DNA from: Stappia sp. TSB10P1A
Lineage (GTDB): Bacteria > Pseudomonadota > Alphaproteobacteria > Rhizobiales > Stappiaceae
Direction of reading: 5' to 3'
Assembly: GCF_900185725.1 (NCBI RefSeq)
Contig: NZ_FYAU01000029.1
Span: 62,001-126,000, forward strand
DNA length: 64,000 nucleotides
A program made the translations under genes and the position numbers. Within the stretch, counting starts at the first letter, position 1. The number at the start of each line of letters is the position of its first letter. The notes beneath the pieces were generated by a model. That model had not been told where the DNA came from and ran no database searches. It saw only the letters and a list, made by a program, of their open reading frames with translations. Shown here piece by piece: positions 5,175 to 31,518 of this stretch.

Positions 5175-6590
5175 ATGCGCCTGCAATCGCCCTGGCACCC
5201 GCGTCTGGCCGAGATCGACGGCTCGCCCGCCGAACGGCTCGATGCCGCCCTGTCGCAGGACATCCTGTCCGGGGCTCTGCCGGTCGGCGCCCGCCTGCCG
5301 GCGCAGCGCGATCTCGCCTGGCGCCTCGGCATCGGTCTCGGCACGGTGACCAAGGCCTATGCCATGCTGGAGCGGCGCGGGCTGCTGCGCTCCGAGCGCG
5401 GCGCCGGAACCTTCGTCGCCGCGACGGCGGCGCGGCATGGCGACTTCATCGACCTGTCGCGCAACGTGCCGCCGTCGGCCGTCGGCGAGAGGCTGCCGGG
5501 GCGCACCCTTGCGGCGCTGGCAAGGCGCATCGATGCCGAGATGCTCAGCACCTATCCGCCGGTCGCCGGCCATCCCCGCTTCCGCAACGAGCTGGCCCGC
5601 TGGTTCCGCCGCCTCGGCATGGAGGCCGATCCCGCCTGCCTGCTTCTGACCGGCGGCGCCCAGCATGCGCTGGCCGTCGCCCTCACCACCGTCTGCGGTC
5701 CCGGCGGCACGCTGGTGGTGGAGGCGCAGACCTATCCCGGCGTGCTGGCGCTCGCCAGGCATCTCGGCCTGCGCGTCGTCGGCGTCGCCATGGACGGGCA
5801 GGGCATGCGGCCAGAGGCTCTCGATGAGGCTCTCGACGAGGCGCTGGGGCGGGCTCTGAAGGACGCGGGGGGAGGCGGCACCGCCGTCTATCTGACGCCG
5901 ACCATGCAGAACCCGACCACCGGCTCGATGGACCGGGGCCGCCGCGACGCGATCGTCGCGCTGTGCCGCGCCCGCGACGTCATGCTGATCGAGGACGATG
6001 TCTACCGGCTGGTGCCGGAGCCGGACTTTCCCCCGCTCGCCAGCCTCGCCCCCGAGCGGGTCTTCTATGTCAACAGCCTGTCGAAGACGCTCAACCCGGC
6101 GCTGCGCATCGGCGGGCTGGTGGTGCCGCCGGCCTGGTTCGAGCGGGCGGAGGCGGCGCTCCATGCCAGCGGCCTGATGATCTCGCCGCTCGGCTGCGCG
6201 GTGATGGAGCAATGGGTGCTGGACGGCACGGCGGAGGCGATCGGCGCGGCAATCCGCGAGGAGGCGCGGCGCCGCCGGGCGCTGGCTTCCGCGATCCTCG
6301 GCCCGGCCCTGCGCGAGGCCCGCCATGTCGGCTATCATGTCTGGCTGCCGCTCGCCCCGCCGCTGGCGGCGGCGCTGGAGGTGGCGGCGCGGGCGCTCGG
6401 GGTTCTGGTCACCCCGCCCGAGTCCACTCGGGCCGCCTCAACCCTCATCGCGCCGGATCCGGCCGCCTCCGGCGTGCGCCTGTGCATCGGCGGTCCGGCG
6501 CCGGACGATCTGGAGGCGGCCCTGCGCGCCATTGCCGGCCTTCTCGGCAATCTCGGCGCACCCGCGCCCGCCCGCCCCGTCCTTGCCTGA
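5175..6590 (+). CDS. MocR-family regulator (GntR HTH fused to an aminotransferase fold)
   Basis: This 471-residue protein has an N-terminal GntR-type winged helix (LPAQRDLAWRLGIGLGTVTKAY, about residues 41-62). A linker leads to a full fold-I aminotransferase-like domain with the PLP-binding lysine in VNSLSKTLNP near residue 303. This is the PdxR/GabR/TauR architecture, in which PLP or a PLP-amino acid adduct is the effector. The ATG at 5175 was chosen over a GTG at 5148 because the GTG lies inside the operator palindrome. The gene converges on an aminotransferase with an 8-bp gap. Candidate targets are itself and the nearby aminotransferase/M81 island. Confidence 0.9.
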   Translation: MRLQSPWHPRLAEIDGSPAERLDAALSQDILSGALPVGARLPAQRDLAWRLGIGLGTVTKAYAMLERRGLLRSERGAGTFVAATAARHGDFIDLSRNVPPSAVGERLPGRTLAALARRIDAEMLSTYPPVAGHPRFRNELARWFRRLGMEADPACLLLTGGAQHALAVALTTVCGPGGTLVVEAQTYPGVLALARHLGLRVVGVAMDGQGMRPEALDEALDEALGRALKDAGGGGTAVYLTPTMQNPTTGSMDRGRRDAIVALCRARDVMLIEDDVYRLVPEPDFPPLASLAPERVFYVNSLSKTLNPALRIGGLVVPPAWFERAEAALHASGLMISPLGCAVMEQWVLDGTAEAIGAAIREEARRRRALASAILGPALREARHVGYHVWLPLAPPLAAALEVAARALGVLVTPPESTRAASTLIAPDPAASGVRLCIGGPAPDDLEAALRAIAGLLGNLGAPAPARPVLA

Positions 6591-6598
6591 GCGCCTTG

Positions 6599-7921
6599 TC
6601 AGCCGAGCAGCGCGTCGAGCGTCTCGCCGAGCAGGCGCACCATCTCGGCCAGTTCCGCGCCCGTTGCCGTATAGGGCGGGGCGAGCAGCACATGGTCGCC
6701 CGCCTCCCCGTCCACCGTGCCGGCGCCGGGATAGCACAACAGCCCGCGCGCCTGCGCCTCGCGCTTGATTGTAGCGGCAAGCTGCCGCTCGGGCGCGAAG
6801 GGGGCCTTGCTGTCGCGGTCGGCGACCAGTTCCAGCGCGAAGAAGAAGCCGCGCCCGCGAATGTCGCCGACATGCGGATGCTGGCCGAAGCGCGCCTCCA
6901 GCAGCGCCCGCACTAGCCGCTCCTCGGCCTGGACCTTCTCCACCAGCTTCTCGCGGCGGATGATCTTCTGCGTCGCCAGCGCCCCGGCACAGGCGACCGG
7001 GTGGCCGACGAACGTATGCCCGTGCTGGAACGCGCCCGACCCGTCCGCGAAAGCGGCATGGACATGCCCGCCGACCAGCACCGCGCCGAGCGGCAGGAAG
7101 CCCGCCCCCAGCCCCTTGGCGACCGTCATCAGGTCCGGGGCGATGCCTTCGGCAAGACAGGCATGCAAGGAGCCGGTGCGGCCCATGCCGCACATCACCT
7201 CGTCGAGGATCAGCAACACCCCGTGCCGGTCGCAGATCTCGCGGATCCGGCGGAAATAGCCGGGCGCCGGCGGCACCGCGCCGAGCGTTGCCCCCGACAC
7301 GGTCTCGGCGATGAAGGCGGAGACGGTGCCCGGCCCCAGCTCCAGGATCTTCGCCTCCAGCTCGTCGGCGGCGCGCAACCCATAGTCTTCCGCGCTCTCG
7401 CCCTCCTGCCGGCCGCGATAGGCATGGCAGGGCGAGATGTGATGCATGTCGATGAGGAGGTCGGCATAGGCGGCGCGGCGCGCCCGGTTGCCCCCCGCCG
7501 ACAGGGCGCCGAGCGTGTTGCCGTGATAGCTCTGCCAGCGGCTGATCACATGCCGGCGCGCCGGCTCGCCGCGCTCGCGGTGATACTGATGCGCCATCTT
7601 CAGCGCGCATTCCACCGCCTCCGAGCCGCTCAGCACGAAATAGACCTTGTCGAGCCCGCGCGGCGCCCCCTCGACCAGCAGGTCGGCCAGCTCTTCCGCC
7701 GGTTCGCTGGTGAAGAAGCCGCTATGGGCATAGGCGAGGCGCCCGGCCTGCGCGGCGATGGCCTCCGCCACTTCCTGCTGGCTGTGGCCGAGGCAGGAGA
7801 CGGCAGCGCCGCCGCAGGCGTCGAGATAGCGCCGCCCGTCGCTCCCCAGGATGTAGCTGCCCTCGCCGGCGACGGCGAGCGGCGGGGTGGCGCGGGCGGA
7901 TCGGTGGAAGACGTGGCTCAT
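6599..7921 (-). CDS. Class III PLP-dependent aminotransferase
   Basis: This 440-residue protein covers the whole class III (omega) aminotransferase fold. Visible are SGSEAVECALKMA (cofactor phosphate site), WQSYHGNT, ILDEVMCGMGRTG (aspartate that pairs with the PLP pyridine nitrogen) and TVAKGLGAGF with the Schiff-base lysine. The acceptor and donor are not decided by sequence; gamma- or omega-amino compounds with pyruvate or 2-oxoglutarate are typical. It is transcribed away from the M81/oxidoreductase operon across a 215-bp intergenic region that carries the IclR-type motif, so it may belong to the same regulon. A second paralogue lies at 18631. Confidence 0.9.
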   Translation of the reverse strand: MSHVFHRSARATPPLAVAGEGSYILGSDGRRYLDACGGAAVSCLGHSQQEVAEAIAAQAGRLAYAHSGFFTSEPAEELADLLVEGAPRGLDKVYFVLSGSEAVECALKMAHQYHRERGEPARRHVISRWQSYHGNTLGALSAGGNRARRAAYADLLIDMHHISPCHAYRGRQEGESAEDYGLRAADELEAKILELGPGTVSAFIAETVSGATLGAVPPAPGYFRRIREICDRHGVLLILDEVMCGMGRTGSLHACLAEGIAPDLMTVAKGLGAGFLPLGAVLVGGHVHAAFADGSGAFQHGHTFVGHPVACAGALATQKIIRREKLVEKVQAEERLVRALLEARFGQHPHVGDIRGRGFFFALELVADRDSKAPFAPERQLAATIKREAQARGLLCYPGAGTVDGEAGDHVLLAPPYTATGAELAEMVRLLGETLDALLG

Positions 7922-22082: not shown

Positions 22083-23678
22083 ATGACCCTTGTACCCAGG
22101 CTGACATTTCACGGGGCGGCGGGGTGCGTCACCGGGTCGTGCTACCGGCTGGAAACGGCGGGCGGCACGCTGCTGCTCGATTGCGGCCTGTTCCAGGGCT
22201 CCAAGACCGAGAAGGAACTGAACTACCGGCCCTTCCCGTTTTCCGTCGGCGACATCGACGCGGTCATCCTCAGCCACGCCCATATCGACCATTCCGGCCT
22301 GCTGCCGAAGCTCGTCCGCGACGGCTATTCCGGGCCGATTTTCGCCACTGGCGCCACCTTCGAACTGTGCAGCGTGATGCTTCCCGACAGCGCCCACATC
22401 CAGGAGATCGAGGTCGAGCAGCTCAACCGCCGCAACCGTCGGCGGTCGCGCCGCGATGCCGTCGAGCCGATCTATACCGGCGCGGACGCCCAGGCGACGC
22501 TGGCGCTTTTCCACCCCTTTGCCTACGGCCACTGGTTCCAGGTCCTGCCCGGCCTGCGCGCCCGGTTCTGGAACGCCGGCCACCTGCTTGGCTCCGCCTC
22601 GGTCGAGCTGGAGATCGCCGAACCGCCAATGAAACTGCTGTTTTCCGGCGATATCGGCCCCGACTACAAGCTGATGCATCCGGAGCCGGAAGGCCCGAGC
22701 GGCATCGACTATCTCGTCTGCGAGAGCACCTATGGCGACACCGACCGGGAGGACGCTACCCCCGCCCACCGGCGCGGCCAGTTGCGCGCCGAGGTGAAGG
22801 CGGCGATGCATCCGGACGGCGTCCTCCTGATCCCCTCCTTCGCGGTCGAGCGGGCCCAGGAACTGATCAGCGACCTTGCCCGGCTGATGGCCGAGGGCGC
22901 CCTGCCGCAGATCCCGATCTATGTCGATTCGCCGCTCGCCGCCGCCGCGACCCGCGTCTTCGCCCGCCACGCCCGCGAGCTGGAAGGCGGCGAGGTTCTG
23001 CTCAAGGGCCTCGCCGCCCGCAACCTGCACATGACCGAGACGGTCGAACAGAGCAAGGCGCTCGACCGCGTCCGCGGCTTCCACATCGTCATCGCCGCCA
23101 GCGGCATGTGCGAGGCCGGCCGCATCCGCCACCGGCTGAAAAACTGGCTCTGGCGCGACGAGGCGACGGTCCTCTTGGTCGGCTACCAGGCGACCGGCAC
23201 GCTCGGCCGCATCCTCCAGGACGGCGCGCCTTCGGTCCGTATCCAGGGCGAGGAGTTCAGCGTTCGCGCCAGAATCCGCTCCATCGACCTCTATTCCGGC
23301 CATGCCGACGGCCCGGAACTGGTGAGCTGGATCGCCGAACGCCTGCCGCTTGCCCACGACATTTTCCTGGTCCATGGCGAGCCCGAGGCGATCGACGGAC
23401 TGGCCGCCCGCCTGCCCGGCCTCGTTGAGGCGGAGCACGTTCTCAAGCCCGGTCTCGACGAGACCTTCGAGCTGACGCCGACCGGCGCGGTTCGCCTTGC
23501 CGGCACGGCGCCGCCGCGGCTGCCGCGCGAGGAGGTGGCTCATCTCGATTGGCACAACGACGTCACCCGCCTGCTGCTCGACATCAGCGACCAGCTCGCC
23601 ACCGAGCCCGACGAGAAGAGCCGCAACGTGGTGATCCGCCGGCTGCGCCGTGCGCTGTCCGAAGAGGCGGCGCAATAG
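22083..23678 (+). CDS. Metallo-beta-lactamase / beta-CASP RNase-type hydrolase
   Basis: A 531-residue protein of the COG1236 (YSH1/CPSF-type) family. The metallo-beta-lactamase motif SHAHIDHSG is at about residues 64-72, followed by further metal ligands in WNAGHLLGSASVE and LFSGDIG. The beta-CASP domain shows IPSFAVERAQE, SGMCEAGRIRHRL and DLYSGHADGPEL. Family members are RNA endo/exonucleases in eukaryotes and archaea; bacterial members are less studied. It is monocistronic, next to a tiny membrane protein gene, and preceded by unusual interlocking palindromes. RNA is the likely substrate (inference). Confidence 0.88.
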   Translation: MTLVPRLTFHGAAGCVTGSCYRLETAGGTLLLDCGLFQGSKTEKELNYRPFPFSVGDIDAVILSHAHIDHSGLLPKLVRDGYSGPIFATGATFELCSVMLPDSAHIQEIEVEQLNRRNRRRSRRDAVEPIYTGADAQATLALFHPFAYGHWFQVLPGLRARFWNAGHLLGSASVELEIAEPPMKLLFSGDIGPDYKLMHPEPEGPSGIDYLVCESTYGDTDREDATPAHRRGQLRAEVKAAMHPDGVLLIPSFAVERAQELISDLARLMAEGALPQIPIYVDSPLAAAATRVFARHARELEGGEVLLKGLAARNLHMTETVEQSKALDRVRGFHIVIAASGMCEAGRIRHRLKNWLWRDEATVLLVGYQATGTLGRILQDGAPSVRIQGEEFSVRARIRSIDLYSGHADGPELVSWIAERLPLAHDIFLVHGEPEAIDGLAARLPGLVEAEHVLKPGLDETFELTPTGAVRLAGTAPPRLPREEVAHLDWHNDVTRLLLDISDQLATEPDEKSRNVVIRRLRRALSEEAAQ

Positions 23679-23984: not shown

Positions 23985-23999
23985 GTTCTCATTTTGTTC
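23985..23999 (+). promoter_or_regulatory. LexA box (alphaproteobacterial type)
   Basis: GTTC-TCATTTT-GTTC is an exact match to the GTTC-N7-GTTC direct-repeat LexA site of Alphaproteobacteria. It ends 12 bp before the first gene of the mutagenesis operon. LexA should therefore repress the whole 24012-30226 unit until DNA damage. I could not identify convincing -35/-10 hexamers around it. Confidence 0.85.
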
Positions 24000-24011
24000 T
24001 TTCATTCGGGC

Positions 24012-24710
24012 ATGCAATACACGTTGCCGCTCGTTGCCGACACCCGCCTTGCGCGGGTTCACGGACTGCTGCTTGCCCGGTTCGGTCCGGTGCCGGAGTG
24101 CTACCGGCTCGACCCGGTGAGCCAGCTCGTCTTCGCGATGCTGAGCGGCCGGACACGGGATGCGGTCGCCATGGAGGTCTTTGCAGCGCTGGCCCGCCGG
24201 ATGGGTGCCTGGGAGCGGCTGGCGGAAACGGCGGCGAGCGAGCTGGAGGGCATGATCGCCGGGGTGACCTTCGCCGAGCGCAAGGCGCGGCAGATCCCGG
24301 CCGCCCTGCGCGAGATCGCGGCCCGGCGCGGGCGGCTCGACCTGGAGTTCCTTGCCGGCTGGCCGGTGGAGGAGGGCCGGGTCTGGCTGGAGAGCCTGAC
24401 CGGGGTCGGCCCCAAGACCAGCATGGCGGTGCTCGGGCTCAGCACGCTGCGCCGCCGGGCGCTGATGGTCGACACGGCCCATAACCGGGTCGCCGGCCGG
24501 CTGGGCCTCGTGCCGGTGCGCGCCGACATTGCCCACGCCACGCGGCTGCTCAATCGGCAGCTACCCGCAGCCTGGACCGCCGACGATACGGAAACCCACC
24601 ATTTTCTGATGCAGGGGCTGGGCCGCAGCCATTGCCGTCACCGCCGGCCGGTCTGCGCGGACTGCCCGTTGTGCCGCCTCTGCCAGGCGGTGCCGGAGGG
24701 GCGGGCATGA
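24012..24710 (+). CDS. Endonuclease III-like DNA glycosylase (HhH-GPD with Fe-S cluster)
   Basis: This 232-residue HhH-GPD protein has the helix-hairpin-helix LTGVGPKTSMAVL with Lys135 in the place of the catalytic lysine of Nth. VDTAHNRV supplies the catalytic aspartate (Asp154). C208-X6-C215-X2-C218-X5-C224 is the exact [4Fe-4S] spacing of endonuclease III; an extra Cys221 lies inside it. It should excise damaged pyrimidines and nick the abasic site, but could prefer other lesions. The start at 24012 follows the LexA box, and its stop overlaps imuA by ATGA, so it is the leading gene of an SOS mutagenesis operon. Confidence 0.88.
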   Translation: MQYTLPLVADTRLARVHGLLLARFGPVPECYRLDPVSQLVFAMLSGRTRDAVAMEVFAALARRMGAWERLAETAASELEGMIAGVTFAERKARQIPAALREIAARRGRLDLEFLAGWPVEEGRVWLESLTGVGPKTSMAVLGLSTLRRRALMVDTAHNRVAGRLGLVPVRADIAHATRLLNRQLPAAWTADDTETHHFLMQGLGRSHCRHRRPVCADCPLCRLCQAVPEGRA

Positions 24711-25504
24711 GGGACGGGAAGATACTGGCGGCGCTGCGCGCCCGCATGGCCGCGGGCGGGCTGGACGAGGGGGCGGCCTGGCCGGCGGTCGGGCTGGATG
24801 CAGGGGCGGACGCGCAAGGGGCAGTGCTGCCCGGCGGGCTGGCGAGCGGGGCCCTGCACGAGCTGCAGCCGGCGACGCCGGCCGATATCGGCGCGGCGAC
24901 CGGGTTTGCCCTGGGCCTTGCCGCGCGGCTGCTGGCGCGCCGTCCCGGCCCTCTTCTGTGGGGGCTGCCGTCGACGCGGGGCTGGCGCGAGGGTCGGCTT
25001 TATCCGGTCGGCCTTGCCGCCTTTGGTATCGATCCGGACCGGCTGATCCAGGTCGAGGTGAAGAAGACCGCCGACCTCCTGTGGAGCCTGGAGGAGGCGC
25101 TGGACCACCCCTCGCTCGCCGTCGTCGTCGGCCTGCTGCCCGAAGGCGACCGGCTCTACGACTTCACCGCGAGCCGCCGCCTGGCGATGCGCGCCGCCCG
25201 CCACGGGGCGACGGTGCTGCTGCTGGGAGCGGCGCCTGTCTTCGACATGGCAACGGCCGCCTCGACCCGCTGGTCGATTGCCGCTTCGGCAAGCCGGCCC
25301 GTGCCCCATGCCGGCCAGGCGGTGCCGGGGCTCGGCCCGCCGCGCTGGCAGGCCCGGCTGGTGAAATCGCGCAAGGGTCTTCTGGACGCCTGGGATCTCG
25401 AGTGGAACCATGACACGCTGTCTTTCCGTCTGGCTGCCCCGCTGGCCGACCGAGCGCCGCTGCGCCGGGCCGGCCCGCTCGCGCCGCGATCGACTGCCGC
25501 CTGA
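24707..25504 (+). CDS. imuA: ImuA, RecA-like mutasome protein
   Basis: This 265-residue protein matches ImuA (SulA-like/RecA-like) of the ImuA-ImuB-DnaE2 mutasome. The core GPLLWGLPSTRGWREGRLYPVGL and the segment QVEVKKTADLLWSLEEAL correspond to the degenerate RecA fold without a clear Walker A. The end KSRKGLLDAWDLEWNHDTLSF is typical of the family. In other bacteria it is needed for damage-induced mutagenesis together with ImuB and DnaE2. Its last 95 bp overlap imuB in another frame. Confidence 0.9.
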   Translation: MRDGKILAALRARMAAGGLDEGAAWPAVGLDAGADAQGAVLPGGLASGALHELQPATPADIGAATGFALGLAARLLARRPGPLLWGLPSTRGWREGRLYPVGLAAFGIDPDRLIQVEVKKTADLLWSLEEALDHPSLAVVVGLLPEGDRLYDFTASRRLAMRAARHGATVLLLGAAPVFDMATAASTRWSIAASASRPVPHAGQAVPGLGPPRWQARLVKSRKGLLDAWDLEWNHDTLSFRLAAPLADRAPLRRAGPLAPRSTAA

Positions 25505-26984
25505 CGAGGCGGGCCCGCTCGTGCTCTCCGTGCTGGAGCGGAATGGAGCACGGGTCAGCGCGGTCAACGCGCCCGCCGCCGCGCTCGGCCTTGCGCCGGG
25601 CATGCCGCTGGCCGATGCGCGGGCGATCCATCCCGCTCTCGCTGTTGCGTCGGCGGACCCGGACGGCGATGCGCAAGGCCTGCGCCGGCTCGCCCTGTGG
25701 TGCCAACGCTACAGCCCGCTGACCCGCATCGACGCGCCGGACGGCGTCTCCATCGACATTGCCGGCTGCGCCCATCTGTTCGGCGGCGAAGAGGCGCTGA
25801 TGGCGGATCTCGCCGACCGGCTGCATGGCTTCGGCCTCACCGCCCGGCTTGCGCTGGCGCCGACGCTCGGCGCCGCTTGGGCGCTTGCCCGCTATGGCGA
25901 GACGGAGATGACGCGAGCCGCCCCCGGCGAGACGGGCGAGCGACTGGCGCCGCTTCCCGTCGCCGCCCTGCGCATCGAGGCGGAGACGGCGCGCGCCCTG
26001 GCCCGGCTTGGCCTCGACCGGATCGGACTATTAGCCGGCAAACCACGGGCGCCGCTCGCCGGCCGCTTCGGCCCGCTCCTGGTGCTGCGGCTCGACCAGG
26101 CCTTGGGGCGCGAGGGCGAGCGCTTCGATCCGGTCGAGGCGGCGCCGGTCCACCGCATCGCGCGCAATTTCGCCGAGCCGGTCGTCACGCTGGAGGCGAT
26201 CGCCGAGGTGGCGGCGCGGCTTGTCGGCGAGCTTGCCGAGATGCTGCAGGGCCTCGGCAAGGCGGCGCGGCGGCTGGAACTGGCGCTCTATCGCGTCGAC
26301 GGCTGGCGCGAGGCGCTGGAACTGCGCATCACCCGGCCGAGCAACGATGCCGCGCATCTTTTGCGCCTGCTCGGCGAGCGGCTCGACCGGCTGCGCGACC
26401 ATGCCGGCTTCGGCTTCGAGGCGGCGGTGCTCTCCGCCTTCGAGGTGGAGCGCGCCGAGGCGGTGCAGGCGGCACTGTCGGGGCGCGAGCGTGTCGTCCC
26501 CCCGCCGGGCGATCTCGACCGCTTGCTCGACCGGCTGGTCAATCGCTTCGGGCCCGAGCGCGTCTGCCGCTTCGCGCCGCGCGAAAGCCATGTGCCGGAG
26601 CGCGCCTGCCATCCGGTCTCGGCGCTTGCTCAGGCGGTGCGCCACGACTGGGCGGCGCATTGCCGGGCCCTGCATGGCGGTGCCGCGCTTGCCCGCCCGC
26701 CGCTGCTGTTCGAACGTCCCGAGCCGGTGGAGGTGCTGGTGGAGATGCCGGACAAGCCGCCGGCGCGCTTCGAGTGGCGGCGCACCGCGCACCGCATCGT
26801 GCGCGCGGAAGGGCCGGAGCGGATCGCGCCGGAATGGTGGGCGGGCGGCGAGGCCAACCGCCTGACCCGCGACTATTACCGTGTCGAGGACACGGACGGG
26901 CGGCGCTTCTGGCTGTTCCGCGAAGGCCTTTACGACCGGCCCGGCGACACGGTGCGCTGGTTCGTCCATGGGCTGTTCGCATGA
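25410..26984 (+). CDS. imuB: ImuB, Y-family polymerase-like mutasome subunit
   Basis: This 524-residue protein has the palm/finger region of Y-family polymerases (SVWLPRWPTER at the start; YSPLTRIDAPDGVSIDIAGCAHLFGG around residues 100-120; GLTARLALAPTLGAAWALARYG). The acidic residues needed for catalysis in active Y polymerases are not all present, as is normal for ImuB, which acts as an adaptor between the beta clamp and DnaE2. The C-terminal part ends RFWLFREGLYDRPGDTVRWF, a conserved ImuB ending. The stop overlaps the dnaE2 start (ATGATG). Confidence 0.92.
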   Translation: MTRCLSVWLPRWPTERRCAGPARSRRDRLPPDEAGPLVLSVLERNGARVSAVNAPAAALGLAPGMPLADARAIHPALAVASADPDGDAQGLRRLALWCQRYSPLTRIDAPDGVSIDIAGCAHLFGGEEALMADLADRLHGFGLTARLALAPTLGAAWALARYGETEMTRAAPGETGERLAPLPVAALRIEAETARALARLGLDRIGLLAGKPRAPLAGRFGPLLVLRLDQALGREGERFDPVEAAPVHRIARNFAEPVVTLEAIAEVAARLVGELAEMLQGLGKAARRLELALYRVDGWREALELRITRPSNDAAHLLRLLGERLDRLRDHAGFGFEAAVLSAFEVERAEAVQAALSGRERVVPPPGDLDRLLDRLVNRFGPERVCRFAPRESHVPERACHPVSALAQAVRHDWAAHCRALHGGAALARPPLLFERPEPVEVLVEMPDKPPARFEWRRTAHRIVRAEGPERIAPEWWAGGEANRLTRDYYRVEDTDGRRFWLFREGLYDRPGDTVRWFVHGLFA

Positions 26985-29900
26985 TGGCGGCCTTCGCGGA
27001 ACTGGTGGCGACCAGCAATTTCAGCTTCCTGCGCGGCGCCTCGCATGCGGCGGAGTTGGTGGCGACGGCGGCCCGGCTCGGCCTTGCTGCCATCGGCATC
27101 GCCGACCGCAACACGCTGGCCGGCGTCGTGCGGGCGCATGTGGCGGCGCGCGAGCATCCCATTCGTCTGATCGTCGGCGCGCGGCTGGTGCTGCGCGACG
27201 GGTTCGAACTGGTCATCCATCCGCAGGACCGGGAGGCCTATGGCCGGCTGAGCCGGCTGCTCACCCTCGGCAACCGGCGGGCGCCGAAAGGGGAATGCCA
27301 TCTCGACTTTTCCGATCTCGGCGGGCTCGGGGAGGGGCAGCAGCTCATCGTCATCCCGCCGCGCAGCCTTGATGCCGCCTTCGCCGCGCGCCTTGCCGAG
27401 TTGGGGCAGGGCTATGCCGGCGCCGTCTCGCTGGCCCTGTCGCCCGCCCATCGCAGCGACGACAGGGCCCGTTTCGACCGCCTGGCGGAGCTTGCCGGGG
27501 CCTGCCGCACACCGCTGGTCGCGACCAACGACGTGCTCTACCACGCGCCCGAGCGGCGTCCCTTGCAGGATGTGCTCACCTGCATCCGCGCGCATGTGAC
27601 CATCGACGCGGCCGGCTTCCTGCTGGAGCCGAATGCGGAGCGACACCTGAAGCCGCCGCGGGAAATGGCGCGGCTGCTGTCCGGCCATGAGCGCGCGCTG
27701 GAGCGCAGCCTGGAGATCGCCGAGCGTTGCCGGTTCAGCCTCGACGAGCTGTCACCGCATTATCCGGACGAGCCGGCCGGCGAGAGCGCGACGCCGCAGC
27801 AGGAGTTGGAGCGGCTGACCTGGCTGGGGGCCGAAAACCGGTTTCCGCAAGGCATCCCACCGGATGTGCAGGCGAACATCGCGCGCGAACTGCGGCTGAT
27901 CGGCGAACTCGGCTTCGCCTCCTATTTCCTCACCGTGCAGGACATCGTCCGCTTCGCCCGCAGCCAGGATCCGCCGATCCTGTGCCAGGGGCGCGGCTCC
28001 TCGGCCAATTCCGTCGTCTGCTATTGCCTCGGCATCACTTCGGTCAATCCGACCGAGATCGACCTCTTGTTCGAGCGCTTCGTGTCGGCGGCGCGCGGCG
28101 AGCCGCCGGATATCGACGTCGATTTCGAGCATGAGCGGCGCGAGGAGGTGATTCAGTACATCTATCGGCGCTATGGCCGCGAACGCGCCGGCCTTGCCGC
28201 CACGGTGATCCGCTACCGCGCCCGCAGCGCCGTCAATGACGTCGGCAAGGCGATGGGCCTGTCGACCGACGTGGTCGGCGCCATGTCCGGCCTGATCTGG
28301 GGCTGGTCGGGCAGCGCGCCGGCGGAAGGCGAGATCCGCCAGGCCGGGCTCGATGCCCGCGATCCCCGCCTGACGCAGACCGTCCGGTTGGTGCGCCAGT
28401 TGATCGACTTCCCCCGCCACCTGTCGCAGCATGTCGGCGGTTTCGTCATCACCCGCGAACGTCTCGACGAGGTGGTCCCGATCGCCAATGCGGCGATGGA
28501 GGACCGCACCGTGGTGGAATGGGACAAGGACGACCTCGACGCGCTCGGCATCCTCAAGGTCGATGTGCTGGCGCTCGGCATGCTGACCTGCCTGCGCAAG
28601 AGCTTCGACCTGCTGCGCGGCCATTACGGCCGCGACATGGGGCTGGCGAGCGTGCCGCGTGACGATCCGGCGACCTATGCGATGATCCAAAAGGCCGATA
28701 CGGTCGGCGTCTTCCAGATCGAGAGCCGGGCGCAGATGTCGATGCTGCCGCGCCTTAGACCTGAAAACTTCTACGATCTCGTCATCCAGATCGCCATCGT
28801 CCGCCCCGGACCGATCCAGGGCGACATGGTCAATCCCTATCTGCGCCGGCGCAAGGGGCTGGAGCAGGTCGACTATCCCTCGCCCGAGCTTGCGGCGGTG
28901 CTGAAGAAGACCCTGGGCGTGCCGCTGTTCCAGGAACAGGCGATGAAGATCGCCATCGTCGGGGCCGGCTTTTCGCCGGATGAGGCGGACCGGCTGCGCC
29001 GGGCGATGGCCTCCTTCCGCAACATCGGCACGATCGAACAGTTCCGCGAGAAATTCGTCGCCGGCATGATCGCGAAGGGCTATCAGCCCGACTTCGCCGC
29101 CCGCTGCTTCGAGCAGATCAAGGGCTTCAGCGATTACGGCTTTCCCGAAAGCCATTCGGCAAGCTTCGCCCTGCTCGCCTATGCCTCCTCCTGGCTCAAG
29201 TGCCACTATCCGGAGGTTTTCGCCTGCGCTCTGCTCAACTCGCAGCCGATGGGTTTTTATTCCTCCGCCTCCATCGTGCGGGACCTGCGTGCCCATGGCG
29301 GCCGCGTGCTGCCGGTCGATGTCAATCACAGCGGCTGGGACCACACGCTGGAGGCGGCGGAGCGATCCGGAGCGCAGACGGGCGAGGGCGGCAATGCCTT
29401 CGCCCTGCGGCTCGGCCTGCGCCAGGTCGACGGATTGGGCGAGGAAGCGGGAGAGGCGCTGGCGGCGGCCCGCGGCATGGGCTTTGCGGATCTCGCCGAC
29501 CTGCATGGCCGGGCCGGCCTCGACAGCCGGGCGCTGGTGGCGCTGGCCAATGCCGATGCCTTCCGCTCGCTCGGCCTCGACCGGCGCCAGGCCTTGTGGG
29601 AGATCAAGGGGCTGGCCGGCCGGCTCGGGCGCGCGGGCGGCCAGGACGACCTGCCGCTGTTCGGCGGGCGGCAGGGACTGGCCTTGCTTGCCGCGCGGGA
29701 AGAGCAGGTGGAACTGCCGTCCATGCGCCCCGGCGAGCATGTGGTGGAAGACTACGCTAGCCTGCACCTGTCGTTGAAGGCGCATCCCTTCGCCTTCCTG
29801 CGCGCCCGCCTCGAGGCCTGCCGCAGCTTGCGCGCGGCCGATCTCGCGTCGCAGGGCAATGGCCGGTTCGTCCGCGTTGCCGGCCTCGTGCTGGTGCGCC

Positions 29901-30226
29901 AGCGTCCGCAAACCGCCAAGAACGTCACCTTCCTGACGCTGGAGGACGAGACGGGCATCGCCAATATCGTGGTCTGGAGCCGGCTCTTCGAGCGCAGCCG
30001 GCGGATCGTCATGGGCGCGCGCGCCATCCTGGTGGACGGCGCCATCCAGAAGGAGGACGGCGTCATCCATCTGGTGGCGCGGCAGCTCACCGACATCACG
30101 CCGGAGCTGATGGCCGCGCTGTCGAAGGAGCCGCCGCCGCAGGAGGGGCCGAAGCTTTCGGGGGCGAGCCTGTGGCGCCATCCGCGCGACACCCGCGTCC
30201 TGCCGAAGGGGCGGAATTTCCACTGA
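26981..30226 (+). CDS. dnaE2: Error-prone DNA polymerase DnaE2
   Basis: This 1081-residue C-family polymerase has the usual length for DnaE2. Order: a PHP domain at the N-terminus in its degenerate DnaE2 form (LVATSNFSFLRGASHAAEL); the palm with the catalytic aspartates in PPDIDVDFEH (about 374-383) and VEWDKDDLDALGILKVDVL; a helix-hairpin-helix region (LGLRQVDGLGEEAG); and an OB domain (VRVAGLVLVRQRPQTAKNVTFLTLED). A DLPLF motif near residue 890 resembles a clamp-binding peptide. It carries out translesion synthesis and mutagenesis under SOS control with ImuA/B. Of two adjacent ATGs, the first overlaps the imuB stop. Confidence 0.95.
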   Translation: MMAAFAELVATSNFSFLRGASHAAELVATAARLGLAAIGIADRNTLAGVVRAHVAAREHPIRLIVGARLVLRDGFELVIHPQDREAYGRLSRLLTLGNRRAPKGECHLDFSDLGGLGEGQQLIVIPPRSLDAAFAARLAELGQGYAGAVSLALSPAHRSDDRARFDRLAELAGACRTPLVATNDVLYHAPERRPLQDVLTCIRAHVTIDAAGFLLEPNAERHLKPPREMARLLSGHERALERSLEIAERCRFSLDELSPHYPDEPAGESATPQQELERLTWLGAENRFPQGIPPDVQANIARELRLIGELGFASYFLTVQDIVRFARSQDPPILCQGRGSSANSVVCYCLGITSVNPTEIDLLFERFVSAARGEPPDIDVDFEHERREEVIQYIYRRYGRERAGLAATVIRYRARSAVNDVGKAMGLSTDVVGAMSGLIWGWSGSAPAEGEIRQAGLDARDPRLTQTVRLVRQLIDFPRHLSQHVGGFVITRERLDEVVPIANAAMEDRTVVEWDKDDLDALGILKVDVLALGMLTCLRKSFDLLRGHYGRDMGLASVPRDDPATYAMIQKADTVGVFQIESRAQMSMLPRLRPENFYDLVIQIAIVRPGPIQGDMVNPYLRRRKGLEQVDYPSPELAAVLKKTLGVPLFQEQAMKIAIVGAGFSPDEADRLRRAMASFRNIGTIEQFREKFVAGMIAKGYQPDFAARCFEQIKGFSDYGFPESHSASFALLAYASSWLKCHYPEVFACALLNSQPMGFYSSASIVRDLRAHGGRVLPVDVNHSGWDHTLEAAERSGAQTGEGGNAFALRLGLRQVDGLGEEAGEALAAARGMGFADLADLHGRAGLDSRALVALANADAFRSLGLDRRQALWEIKGLAGRLGRAGGQDDLPLFGGRQGLALLAAREEQVELPSMRPGEHVVEDYASLHLSLKAHPFAFLRARLEACRSLRAADLASQGNGRFVRVAGLVLVRQRPQTAKNVTFLTLEDETGIANIVVWSRLFERSRRIVMGARAILVDGAIQKEDGVIHLVARQLTDITPELMAALSKEPPPQEGPKLSGASLWRHPRDTRVLPKGRNFH

Positions 30227-30252: not shown

Positions 30253-30909
30253 TCAGGCGGCGGAGCGCTGGAGCATGTAATGCACGATGCCGTGTTCGCC
30301 GGCGGTAACAGTCACGCTGCCGAGCCCGCAGGCCGGCAGGTCCAGCCCCTGCAGCAGGTTTTCGCCCTTGCCGAACACCGCGGGCACGACCGCAAGATGC
30401 ATCTCGTCGATGAGGCCGGCCTCAAGATACTGGCGCAAGGTCGAGACGCCGCCGCCGACCCGCACGTCGCGGTCGCCGGCCGCGGCCCTTGCGCGCTCCA
30501 GCGCCGCATGAATGCCGTCGGTGACGAAATGAAACACCGTACCGCCCGGCATCTCGAAGCTGGCACGAGGATGGTGGGTCAGGACGAAAACGTCACAGTG
30601 AAAAGGCGGAGTATCGCCCCACCACCCCTTCCAGCCGTCGTCCGGCCAGGGACCGCGCACGGGACCGAACATGTTCCGCCCCATGATCCAGGCGCCGACA
30701 TTCTCGAAGCTGCGGGCGATGAACTTCTCGTTGATGCCGGGAGTGCCGCCGTCTTCGCCCAGCACGCGGCGGCGGAAGCTCGGCGTGTCGAACACCCACT
30801 CGCGCAGGGCCTCGCTGCCGACGCCCATCGGCTCCGTCTCGCTCTGGTCGGGGCCGGCGCCATAGCCGTCGAGCGACAGGCTGAAGCAGTGAACGCGGAG
30901 CTTGGGCAT
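30253..30909 (-). CDS. RibD C-terminal / dihydrofolate-reductase-like protein
   Basis: This 218-residue protein is of the RibD-C/DHFR-like family (YwjB/YyaP type). Visible are CFSLSLDGYGAGP at the N-terminus, GAWIMGRNMFGP, FVLTHHPRASFEM and the NADPH-binding DVRVGGGVSTLRQYLEAGLIDEMHL. These proteins are predicted NADPH reductases of unknown substrate. The start at 30909 follows GGAGGA. It is divergent from an HxlR regulator with 87 bp between them, so that regulator probably controls it. Confidence 0.88.
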   Translation of the reverse strand: MPKLRVHCFSLSLDGYGAGPDQSETEPMGVGSEALREWVFDTPSFRRRVLGEDGGTPGINEKFIARSFENVGAWIMGRNMFGPVRGPWPDDGWKGWWGDTPPFHCDVFVLTHHPRASFEMPGGTVFHFVTDGIHAALERARAAAGDRDVRVGGGVSTLRQYLEAGLIDEMHLAVVPAVFGKGENLLQGLDLPACGLGSVTVTAGEHGIVHYMLQRSAA

Positions 30910-30924
30910 GGGTTCCTCCAAACC

Positions 30925-30980
30925 GATTGCAAACCGAAAGCAGTTGTCTTGTGTCACGACTGCTCCTAGATTGCAACCGG
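30925..30980. promoter_or_regulatory. HxlR operator/promoter region
   Basis: The divergent gap carries a near-perfect inverted repeat AGCAGTTGT (30939-30947)/ACGACTGCT (30956-30964). GATTGCAA occurs as a direct repeat at 30925-30932 and 30969-30976. A rightward promoter TTGTCT (30944)-N17-TAGATT (30967) overlaps the inverted repeat. This layout fits autoregulation and control of the reductase by the HxlR protein. Confidence 0.5.
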
Positions 30981-30996
30981 TTTTGACGGAGGCGGC

Positions 30997-31518
30997 ATGC
31001 AGGACATCGAGCGCCGGTCGGGATGCCCGATCAATCTGGCGATGGAAGTGCTGGGGGATCGCTGGAGCCTCGTCGTCATCCGCGACATGATGTTCGGCAA
31101 CCGCCGGCATTTCCGCGAGTTGCTGACCCGTTCGGAGGAAGGCATCGCCTCCAACATCCTGGCGGCCCGGCTGAAGCGTTTGGTCGCGCTCGGCCTCGTC
31201 ACGAGGCGGGACGATCCGAGCCACAGCCAGAAGGCGATCTACAGCTTGGCCGAACCGGCGATCCAACTGGTGCCGGTGCTGGCGATGCTCGGCGCCTGGG
31301 GGCGCCGGCACCTGCCGGTCAGCGAGGAACTGTCGATCCGCGCGCAGCTTCTGGAAGAGGGCGGCGAGCCGATGTGGACCGCCTTCATGGATGACCTGCG
31401 CCGCCTGCATCTGGAGAACCCCGTCGCCGGCGCCAGCGGAGCCATTGTCTCGCCGGTTCTCGCGGACCTCACCAGGGCCTTTGAGGCCGTGCGGGCGCGG
31501 TCGGCACCTGCCGGATAG
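30997..31518 (+). CDS. HxlR-family winged-helix regulator
   Basis: This 173-residue protein has a full HxlR domain in the first 100 residues: CPINLAMEVLGDRWSLVVIRDMMFG, RHFRELL, GIASNILAARLKRLVALGLV. An unusual C-terminal extension of about 70 residues contains no recognised motif. The conserved N-terminal cysteine (Cys10), often a redox or electrophile sensor in HxlR proteins such as HypR and QorR, is present. It is divergent from the RibD/DHFR-like reductase, its likely target. Confidence 0.9.
   Translation: MQDIERRSGCPINLAMEVLGDRWSLVVIRDMMFGNRRHFRELLTRSEEGIASNILAARLKRLVALGLVTRRDDPSHSQKAIYSLAEPAIQLVPVLAMLGAWGRRHLPVSEELSIRAQLLEEGGEPMWTAFMDDLRRLHLENPVAGASGAIVSPVLADLTRAFEAVRARSAPAG

Follow-up and report, generated by a model that had tools for sequence, protein, structure and literature searches.

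A predicted SOS-controlled DNA glycosylase gene with a putative clamp-binding motif at the head of the imuABC operon of Stappia sp. TSB10P1A

In a 64,000-nucleotide stretch of the Stappia sp. TSB10P1A genome (contig NZ_FYAU01000029.1, positions 62,001 to 126,000; hereafter the window), the imuA-imuB-dnaE2 (imuABC) operon is preceded, directly behind its LexA box, by a gene for a predicted DNA glycosylase, here designated GLY. We favour, with reasonable rather than high confidence, the view that GLY is an SOS-induced, clamp-tethered glycosylase that operates next to the ImuB/DnaE2 mutasome at damaged forks or gaps. In many bacteria that lack DNA polymerase V, SOS mutagenesis is carried out by imuABC (PMC9578287; this and the other papers cited are drawn on for the parts of their text available to us). 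Little is known about which lesions imuABC serves or what feeds it.

The genes of the operon, which comes from a marine bacterium, all overlap and follow the order LexA box, GLY, imuA, imuB, dnaE2 (Table 1). An ATGA at positions 24707–24710 contains both the GLY stop and the imuA start, and imuB overlaps dnaE2 by 1 nt (ATG 26984) or 4 nt (ATG 26981). The coordinates bear out what an initial annotation, made from the sequence alone, had reported: an exact GTTC-N7-GTTC LexA box ahead of the glycosylase, the ATGA junction, the 95 bp imuA/imuB overlap and the imuB/dnaE2 overlap; Lys135, Asp154 and the C-X6-C-X2-C-X5-C pattern of the glycosylase are likewise in place. The window DnaE2 belongs to the error-prone DnaE2 subfamily (NF004225, 1407.9 bits against a cut-off of 939), and ImuB exceeds the cut-offs of the Y-family domain profiles PF00817 and PF11799. 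ImuA reaches 32.5 bits with NF033429, under the cut-off of 150, and its gene has the right position and size for ImuA.

Table 1. Features of the GLY-imuABC locus, in window coordinates
Feature	Position	Strand	Basis or remark
LexA (SOS) box GTTC-N7-GTTC, GTTCTCATTTTGTTC	23985..23999	+	Ends 12 nt ahead of the GLY start; conserved position
GLY, predicted EndoIII-1-like HhH-GPD [4Fe-4S] DNA glycosylase, 232 aa	24012..24710	+	Profile and PDB-sequence matches, tree
GLY residues 2–7, QYTLPL, putative beta-clamp-binding hexapeptide	24015..24032	+	Conservation in boxed GLYs; consensus from the available part of PMC11139829
GLY Lys135, candidate Schiff-base lysine	24414..24416	+	K in 36/38 aligned GLYs
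GLY Asp154, catalytic Asp of HhH-GPD	24471..24473	+	D in 37/38 aligned GLYs
GLY four-cysteine iron-sulfur loop C208/C215/C218/C224, C-X6-C-X2-C-X5-C	24633..24683	+	All four Cys in 38/38 aligned rows
imuA, 265 aa	24707..25504	+	ATGA overlap with GLY; NF033429 match below cut-off
imuB, 524 aa	25410..26984	+	95 bp overlap with imuA; PF00817 and PF11799 above cut-off
ImuB residues 353–358, QAALSG, weakened clamp motif	26466..26483	+	Column of QLDLSG-type clamp motifs in many other ImuBs
dnaE2 (imuC), 1080 aa	26984..30226	+	NF004225 match above cut-off; in-frame ATG also at 26981

A PF00730 score of 38 bits (cut-off 26.2), together with D154 and K135, places GLY in the HhH-GPD superfamily, and its four cysteines, spaced as in the [4Fe-4S] members, predict an iron-sulfur cluster. 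Glu replaces Lys135 in one GLY with an upstream LexA box (a boxed GLY; L081), and an imuABC-linked fragment of 177 aa (L183, genome G775), outside the 38-row alignment, is without the cysteine loop. The score with NF053634 (MonDNAglycDR2438), the best NCBIfam model, was 92.3 bits, under the curated cut-off of 400, and that with TIGR01084 (MutY) was 41.4 against 286.5. The HhH-GPD family, the Lys and Asp residues and the cysteine spacing are common to GLY and E. coli-type Nth; GLY differs in scoring only 52.6 bits with TIGR01083 (Nth; cut-off 211.7) and in forming its own clade outside the Nth-type rows (support 99/99). The closest PDB sequence is that of Deinococcus EndoIII-1 (8.8e-21). In this enzyme of D. 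radiodurans (DR2438; PDB 4UNF, 8A5C, 8A5F), as in GLY, Arg and an aromatic residue replace typical EndoIII residues: R47 and the aromatic residue at position 87 of GLY (R in 32/38 and F/W/Y in 34/38 aligned GLYs, respectively) are the counterparts of R61 and Y100. Where GLY has Arg47, Nth has Gln41. Unlike EndoIII-1, GLY stays under the NF053634 cut-off, and an SOS box and imuABC linkage were observed for GLY only. Of the earlier description as an endonuclease III-like Fe-S glycosylase, the HhH-GPD family and the Fe-S cysteines stand, but GLY is not an Nth equivalog and belongs to a distinct clade nearest to DrEndoIII-1. That it might be the sole Nth of the organism is ruled out by a housekeeping Nth at another genomic site (L149, TIGR01083 270.9 bits against 211.7). 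GLY probably has glycosylase activity and, as the initial annotation proposed, may also have AP-lyase activity. Database records label this subfamily 'endonuclease III' or mislabel it as 'Fe-S cluster assembly protein HesB'.

The bare LexA pattern was dropped as evidence, since it occurs at background level both in the window (0.94 expected by chance) and genome-wide (101 matches versus 95 for a reversed control pattern), and only a conserved position of the box counts. In all 10 loci where imuA follows GLY, an exact box starts 26–28 nt 5' of the GLY start, while the background is 0.0105 boxes per 330 nt on a single strand; the GLY locus thus has the GTTC-N7-GTTC operator of the LexA regulon at a conserved promoter position. 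In 4 further loci, GLY lies 3' of dnaE2, and the operon box is ahead of imuA. Each of the 14 GLY-imuABC operons examined has an exact box at its head and only one forward box, while the GLY-imuA interval of these 14 loci contains no LexA box in either orientation; two reverse-oriented matches inside the linked operons both fall within the imuA coding region (L087, L073). The single forward box at the head, with none between GLY and imuA, supports the earlier proposal that the glycosylase is co-induced and tightly coupled with imuABC, and we infer that GLY and imuA-imuB-dnaE2 would be carried on one transcript. Upstream of GLY, an exact box was present in 30/50 loci, and no reverse-oriented box was found within 300 nt in 107 rows checked. 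Reverse-oriented boxes were found ahead of imuA in other genomes of the genus, and in the genome that contains the window, recA and ssb are preceded, at 119 nt and 411 nt respectively, by boxes of this pattern and orientation. Many standalone relatives of GLY, not linked to imuABC, carry a LexA box of their own, which marks GLY as an SOS gene predicted to be under LexA control in its own right.

GLY is the first gene of the imuABC operon in 6/14 Stappia genomes, exactly those with the window-type ImuB. It has this position in three further families of the order as well, and in a fifth family it lies 3' of dnaE2. The linkage therefore extends over five families, on either side of imuABC, and requires 4 changes on the GLY tree. 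The initial annotation had left it possible that the glycosylase-imuABC order is unique to this strain; its recurrence in the genus and in other alphaproteobacterial families rules out such an accident. Among 21 genomes of the order with a match of GLY strength, 13 matches adjoin imuABC and 8 do not within the stretch read. GLY does not need the linkage, since 20 of the 30 boxed GLYs are apart from imuABC within the stretch read. In the order of genome G628, where GLY is standalone, ImuB is present in 14/14 genomes with GLY versus 30/47 without it (Fisher 0.0064, ignoring kinship). A GLY match was present in 84 sphingomonad-order genomes, 44 of which, G1035 among them, were read; G793 was read only up to 1.5 kb around GLY.

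An N-terminal clamp-like motif on SOS-linked GLYs, missed in the earlier description, is new in this analysis. The pattern Q-x-x-[L/F]-x-[L/F] opens nearly all of these proteins; in the 30 boxed GLYs, Q2 is invariant (30/30), residue 5 is L/F in 29 and residue 7 is L/F/I/Y in 28. In an 86-row table, the motif was present in 35/37 SOS-linked versus 1/49 other full-length GLYs. This table excludes two fragments (L099, 152 aa, with box and motif; L183, with a box and no motif), with which the first count becomes 36/39, as well as the fused frame L277 (neither box nor motif), Nth paralogs, five rows from the same genome or presumed to be near copies (L237, L239, L247, L268 and L279; no box, no motif) and the second of two tandem GLY copies in each of L272 and L273 (neither with box or motif). 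On the GLY tree, however, joint changes of box and motif amount to only about 3 independent pairs (sign test p 0.25). The motif is broken in two full-length boxed GLYs (L063, QYALLP; L064, QLDFWP) and in the boxed fragment L183 (QVISPF), and it is kept in the unboxed L274 (QVSFDF). In the dnaE2-GLY class, it lies deeper (QLGLDF, residues 9–14; QARFAF, residues 3–8), with no adjoining box, and many unboxed sphingomonad-order GLYs retain Q2 and L5 and have lost the last anchor. A stricter pattern, Q-[L/V/I/M/F/Y/A]-x-[LM]-x-[FL], matches only 19/30 boxed GLYs; at residues 2–7 of the longest frame it occurs in 8 of 630 genes (59 loci), all 8 being GLYs, and another gene shows it only when read from an alternative start.

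The clamp consensus is Q-phi-x-[L/M]-x-[F/L], with phi aliphatic, and the Hda motif is located at a disordered N-terminus (PMC11139829); QYTLPL agrees with it at the Q and at both L positions, but position 2 is Tyr instead of an aliphatic residue. Caulobacter HdaA has Phe at this position in the motif required for DnaN, QFKLPL (PMC3836487). Hda (QLSLPL), HdaA and GLY thus have N-terminal QxxLPL hexapeptides in common, and one GLY (L081) carries the exact Hda sequence; Hda, however, is an AAA+ regulator with shown clamp binding, whereas GLY is a glycosylase with predicted binding. It appears probable that GLY binds the clamp via this motif.

Clamp binding is known for ImuB of M. tuberculosis (PMC3901139). 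At the site of the ImuB clamp motif, Gln is kept in 12/14 GLY-linked ImuBs, the exceptions being L072 and L183, and GLY as a general replacement of this motif was rejected for that reason. On an ImuB tree built by a quick method, the window type and the f50 GLY-linked ImuBs group together (10 rows, support 95), whereas the joining of L063 and L068 has a support of only 49; on the DnaE2 tree, the window clade adjoins DnaE2s of the same genus without GLY (support 87). The two trees disagree, and the unlinked rows in both represent the window's own family only. The flanks of the window operon are not common to the other same-genus imuABC loci read; replacement of the resident imuABC by the window clade can only be inferred, since the ORFs in this comparison were mechanical ones and included several shadow ORFs.

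Caulobacter-type LexA-controlled imuABC has the same gene order, overlaps and GTTC-N7-GTTC head box, while the window differs by the glycosylase gene between box and imuA and by the weakened ImuB clamp motif. Caulobacter CC2272, which we take to belong to the LexA regulon of that organism, may be an SOS-controlled relative of GLY. This gene is described as a second nth-like gene (PMC1839093), and ccna_02355 as an SOS gene with its product not stated in the available text (PMC12700426). The available parts of the literature on imuABC variants name lexA, SRAP and ImuB-C as partners, and a glycosylase gene beside imuABC is not among these. Mycobacterial Nei2 and XthA, and human UNG2, NTH1 and MUTYH with PCNA, are clamp-using base-excision enzymes of other families or motifs, and none under SOS control beside imuABC is described in the accessible text (PMC9690074). 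In some C-family polymerase variants, a DnaE-type polymerase carries a fused uracil-DNA glycosylase domain, but, unlike GLY, this glycosylase is of another family, forms a single protein with the polymerase and does not involve the imuABC DnaE2 (PMC3919608).

GLY could also be an ordinary SOS base-excision enzyme, having a promoter in common with imuABC merely because both are LexA targets and making no contact with the clamp or mutasome. Its own LexA box, standalone position in 20/30 boxed loci and conserved catalytic residues fit such an enzyme, and genes of one regulon may cluster in operons without physical contact; however, linkage in five families on both sides of imuABC with 4 changes on the tree, the N-terminal motif following SOS control and the presence of ImuB in 14/14 GLY genomes of one order leave this possible but doubtful. 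That GLY is simply a duplicated Nth, without a role of its own, is very improbable: the fold family and cysteine spacing are those of Nth, but GLY is outside the Nth-type rows (99/99) and far under the Nth cut-off, and a true Nth is present. As for the motif, MQxxLxL could be a translation-start feature, if the mRNA were nearly leaderless and codon 2 (CAR) selected for initiation. The invariant Q2 of boxed GLYs and a box about 27 nt from the ATG agree with this, but conservation of L/F at residues 5 and 7 as well, the more internal motif of the dnaE2-GLY class without an adjoining box, and Q2 and L5 without the last anchor in many unboxed sphingomonad-order GLYs make it quite unlikely.

Two further readings concern what GLY would do beside DnaE2. 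It might promote mutation by creating abasic sites, perhaps in ssDNA at gaps, which DnaE2 would bypass with errors; the LexA-headed operon shared with an error-prone polymerase is consistent with this, as is the relative DrEndoIII-1, mostly monofunctional and ssDNA-capable (PMC9268735), with which GLY has two atypical residues in common. Nevertheless, Lys135 in 36/38 GLYs is equally compatible with a bifunctional enzyme, and damage-directed base removal would instead reduce mutation, so that we consider this role unlikely. More tentatively than the favoured reading, and somewhat improbably, GLY could join ImuA, ImuB and DnaE2 in the inducible mutasome as its fourth subunit, its own clamp contact offsetting the weak ImuB motif (QAALSG) and the site being passed straight to DnaE2; if so, base excision and error-prone gap filling would be one clamp-bound reaction.

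In the favoured model of a clamp-tethered glycosylase, inactivation of LexA would allow a single transcript to yield GLY and the ImuA-ImuB-DnaE2 mutasome. GLY, as a member of this alphaproteobacterial subfamily, would dock on the beta sliding clamp via its first seven residues and, held at stalled forks or single-strand gaps, excise damaged bases, probably oxidised or ring-altered ones; ImuB would recruit DnaE2 to the same clamp, and DnaE2 would bypass or refill the site left by GLY. That GLY acts in one pathway with ImuABC seems to us fairly plausible. GLY represents a defined alphaproteobacterial glycosylase subfamily, separate from Nth. If the model is true, a LexA-controlled, clamp-tethered glycosylase in the imuABC operon would couple base excision with error-prone synthesis, base removal and error-prone copying may share one platform, and the question of which lesions imuABC serves would become testable through one small gene.

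Four genes, each overlapping the next, follow a LexA box in the window, in the order HhH-GPD Fe-S glycosylase, imuA, imuB and dnaE2. The reading of the window and of related loci bore out the initial annotation, which had described these genes as an operon under LexA control, and the arrangement is conserved.

Features of the glycosylase-imuABC operon and its flanks
Feature	Position	Strand	Support
Upstream flank gene: metallo-beta-lactamase, beta-CASP and RMMBL domains	22083-23678	+	
LexA box GTTC-N7-GTTC	23985-23999	+	exact pattern match
Glycosylase, 232-aa HhH-GPD	24012-24710	+	Pfam and NCBIfam
imuA	24707-25504	+	weak match to ImuA model
imuB	25410-26984	+	Pfam and NCBIfam
dnaE2	26984-30226	+	Pfam and NCBIfam
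Downstream flank: RibD_C-domain ORF	30253-31410	-	
Downstream flank: HxlR regulator, opposite	30997-31518	+	

The GTTC-N7-GTTC pattern alone occurs at background level in the window and the genome, so the evidential weight of the box comes from its conserved place. A single exact forward box heads each of the 14 glycosylase-imuABC loci examined, located before the glycosylase at -26 to -28 in 10 loci and before imuA at -41 to -155 in the four where the glycosylase comes last. No box in either orientation was found between the glycosylase and imuA in these 14 loci, and two matches in reverse orientation fall within imuA (L087 and L073); in the six Stappia loci the glycosylase and imuA overlap by ATGA. 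Standalone glycosylases have an exact box just upstream in 20 of 36 unlinked loci, with five more among sphingomonad-order loci, and none of 107 rows has a reverse-oriented box in the 300 nt upstream. Since boxes head the linked loci and often precede standalone genes, the glycosylase is, on sequence grounds, itself an SOS gene, with imuABC as a frequent partner in the order Rhizobiales. A Caulobacter relative under LexA may already be included in the Caulobacter SOS regulon paper. In the window's genome, recA has a reverse-oriented box 119 nt upstream and ssb has one 411 nt upstream. The same genome has a gene 35 nt behind the LexA-like box GTTCCTGTTATGTTC (L224; G000:C40, box at 161574), whose first 200 aa score 285.7 bits against the PA0069-family radical SAM model (cut-off 360).

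The gene order, which might have been unique to this strain, recurs across the window's order: the glycosylase is located before imuA in families f1, f5, f2 and f23, and after dnaE2 in f50. Matches at E below 1e-40 were found in 21 of 397 genomes of this order, 13 of them beside imuABC and 8 not so in the stretch read, which for one of the latter (G793) covered only 1.5 kb either side of the gene. Of 14 Stappia genomes, 6 have the glycosylase at the head of imuABC, exactly those with the window-type ImuB; the remaining eight gave no glycosylase match, and their ImuB is 43-44% identical to the window type. A different imuABC, at other sites and lacking the glycosylase, was observed in eight same-genus genomes (L088-L096), and among those checked the box upstream of imuA runs in reverse orientation, GAAC-N7-GAAC, in L089, L090, L092 and L093.

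Linkage to imuABC requires four changes on the glycosylase tree. The partner trees give mixed signals on joint movement of the glycosylase and imuABC: the ImuB tree groups the window type with glycosylase-linked ImuBs of f50 (support 95), and the DnaE2 tree places it beside same-genus DnaE2s lacking the glycosylase (support 87). The clamp motif of window-clade ImuB is weakened (QAALSG), and its Gln is gone in 2 of 14 glycosylase-linked ImuBs. In another order, that of G628, where the glycosylase is unlinked in the stretches read, ImuB is present in all 14 genomes with the glycosylase versus 30 of 47 without it (Fisher 0.0064, uncorrected for kinship; both are missing from nine genomes belonging to one genus). 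In the sphingomonad order, most glycosylases read have no LexA box. Of 49 stretches from that order, 34 have guaA, encoding GMP synthase, upstream of the glycosylase and on its strand, from 4 nt to about 4 kb away (e.g., L191 4428-6708; also L080, L244 and L260), with 1 nt between the annotated genes in a Qipengyuania plasmid. The pairing is possibly another operon context.

The window glycosylase begins with the residues QYTLPL. Among 30 boxed glycosylases, Gln2 is present in all, residue 5 is L or F in 29 and residue 7 is L, F, I or Y in 28; a stricter pattern is met by 19. The clamp-binding consensus, as given in passages of PMC11139829, is Q-phi-x-[L/M]-[F/L] or Q-phi-x-[L/M]-x-[F/L], with phi aliphatic, and the Hda motif sits in a disordered N-terminus; the Caulobacter HdaA sequence QFKLPL, residues 4-9, is required for DnaN interaction (passages of PMC3836487). 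Scored as Q-x-x-[LMIF]-x-[FLIY] within the first 16 residues of 86 full-length glycosylases, the motif was found in 35 of the 37 that are boxed or linked to imuABC versus 1 of the other 49, the exceptions being L063, L064 and L274; with two fragments added, it occurs in 36 of 39 SOS-linked glycosylases. Those encoded behind dnaE2 also carry it, slightly further in (QLGLDF, QARFAF).

Boxless groups are mostly motif-free. They comprise the Methylobacterium and Azospirillum-plasmid type, one paralog in G1156, whose sister copy has both box and motif, and the main sphingomonad-order type, with QLPLGP-like starts. The 13 Nth paralogs read alike in the sphingomonad order have neither box nor strict motif. 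When 630 genes in 59 loci were read from the start of their longest frame, eight had the strict motif at residues 2-7, all of them glycosylases of this clade. The association of box and motif involves only three independent transitions on the tree, resulting in p 0.25 in a formal test, and the boxless, motif-free groups may represent either losses or gains.

The glycosylase has Lys135, Asp154 and the four Cys of the iron-sulfur loop. The possibility that it is the sole Nth of the organism can be dismissed, since the window's genome contains four HhH-GPD genes and the true Nth, L149, scores 270.9 bits (cut-off 211.7). On the same Nth model the glycosylase reaches 52.6 bits and on the MutY model 41.4; the Deinococcus DR2438 model gives 92.3 bits, with a cut-off of 400. 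By curated rules it is therefore a member of none of the three. On a maximum-likelihood tree all 48 glycosylase rows are separated from 8 Nth-type rows (support 99/99). Among solved structures, those of D. radiodurans EndoIII-1 (DrEndoIII-1) match it best. Passages of PMC9268735 give R61 and Y100 as the residues that set DrEndoIII-1 apart from typical EndoIII; at these two sites the glycosylase has Arg47 and Phe87. Among 38 aligned glycosylases, Lys135 is kept in 36, Asp154 in 37, Arg at the first of these sites in 32, and F, W or Y at the second in 34. DrEndoIII-1 is reportedly a mostly monofunctional glycosylase that is less active on common substrates and processes ssDNA (passages of PMC9268735); by analogy, the targets here may be damaged bases where the DNA is single-stranded or gapped.

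Several variants were observed. A boxed glycosylase in L081, 7347-8039 (-), begins exactly with the Hda motif QLSLPL and has Glu at the Lys135 position, so any lyase activity would differ. The imuABC-linked copy in L183, 111-668 (G775), has just 177 aa and no four-cysteine loop while retaining the ATGA overlap with imuA, and appears decaying or non-catalytic. Azospirillum-plasmid members of the clade (L188 and L189, both 5998-6717) are annotated as 'Fe-S cluster assembly protein HesB', and two sphingomonad-order genomes have second copies in tandem, without box or motif (L272 and L273).

From the observed layout, box, conservation and motif, a scheme of transcription, docking, activity and pathway can be proposed. 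Loss of LexA would switch on one message for the glycosylase and imuABC; the glycosylase, its N-terminus docked on the clamp, would find and remove damaged bases near a stalled fork or in gaps; and DnaE2, delivered by ImuB to the same clamp, would perform bypass or refilling. Because Caulobacter ImuC reportedly fills gaps left by nucleotide excision when cells are not dividing (cited in passages of PMC9578287), gap filling following base excision would be a plausible extension.

Among the matches listed for openly available papers on imuABC, clamp motifs, the LexA regulon and base excision or HhH-GPD enzymes, no description of the glycosylase-imuABC/dnaE2 arrangement was found, and no paper matched the combination of endonuclease III, dnaE2, LexA and Alphaproteobacteria. 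The glycosylase passages of two imuABC/DnaE surveys deal with other proteins, namely uracil-DNA glycosylases, Tdg and a DnaE-type fusion (PMC3765255, PMC3919608). The arrangement is real, conserved and more interesting than first stated, because the glycosylase, an SOS gene that probably has a clamp tether, repeatedly adjoins mutasome genes on either side.
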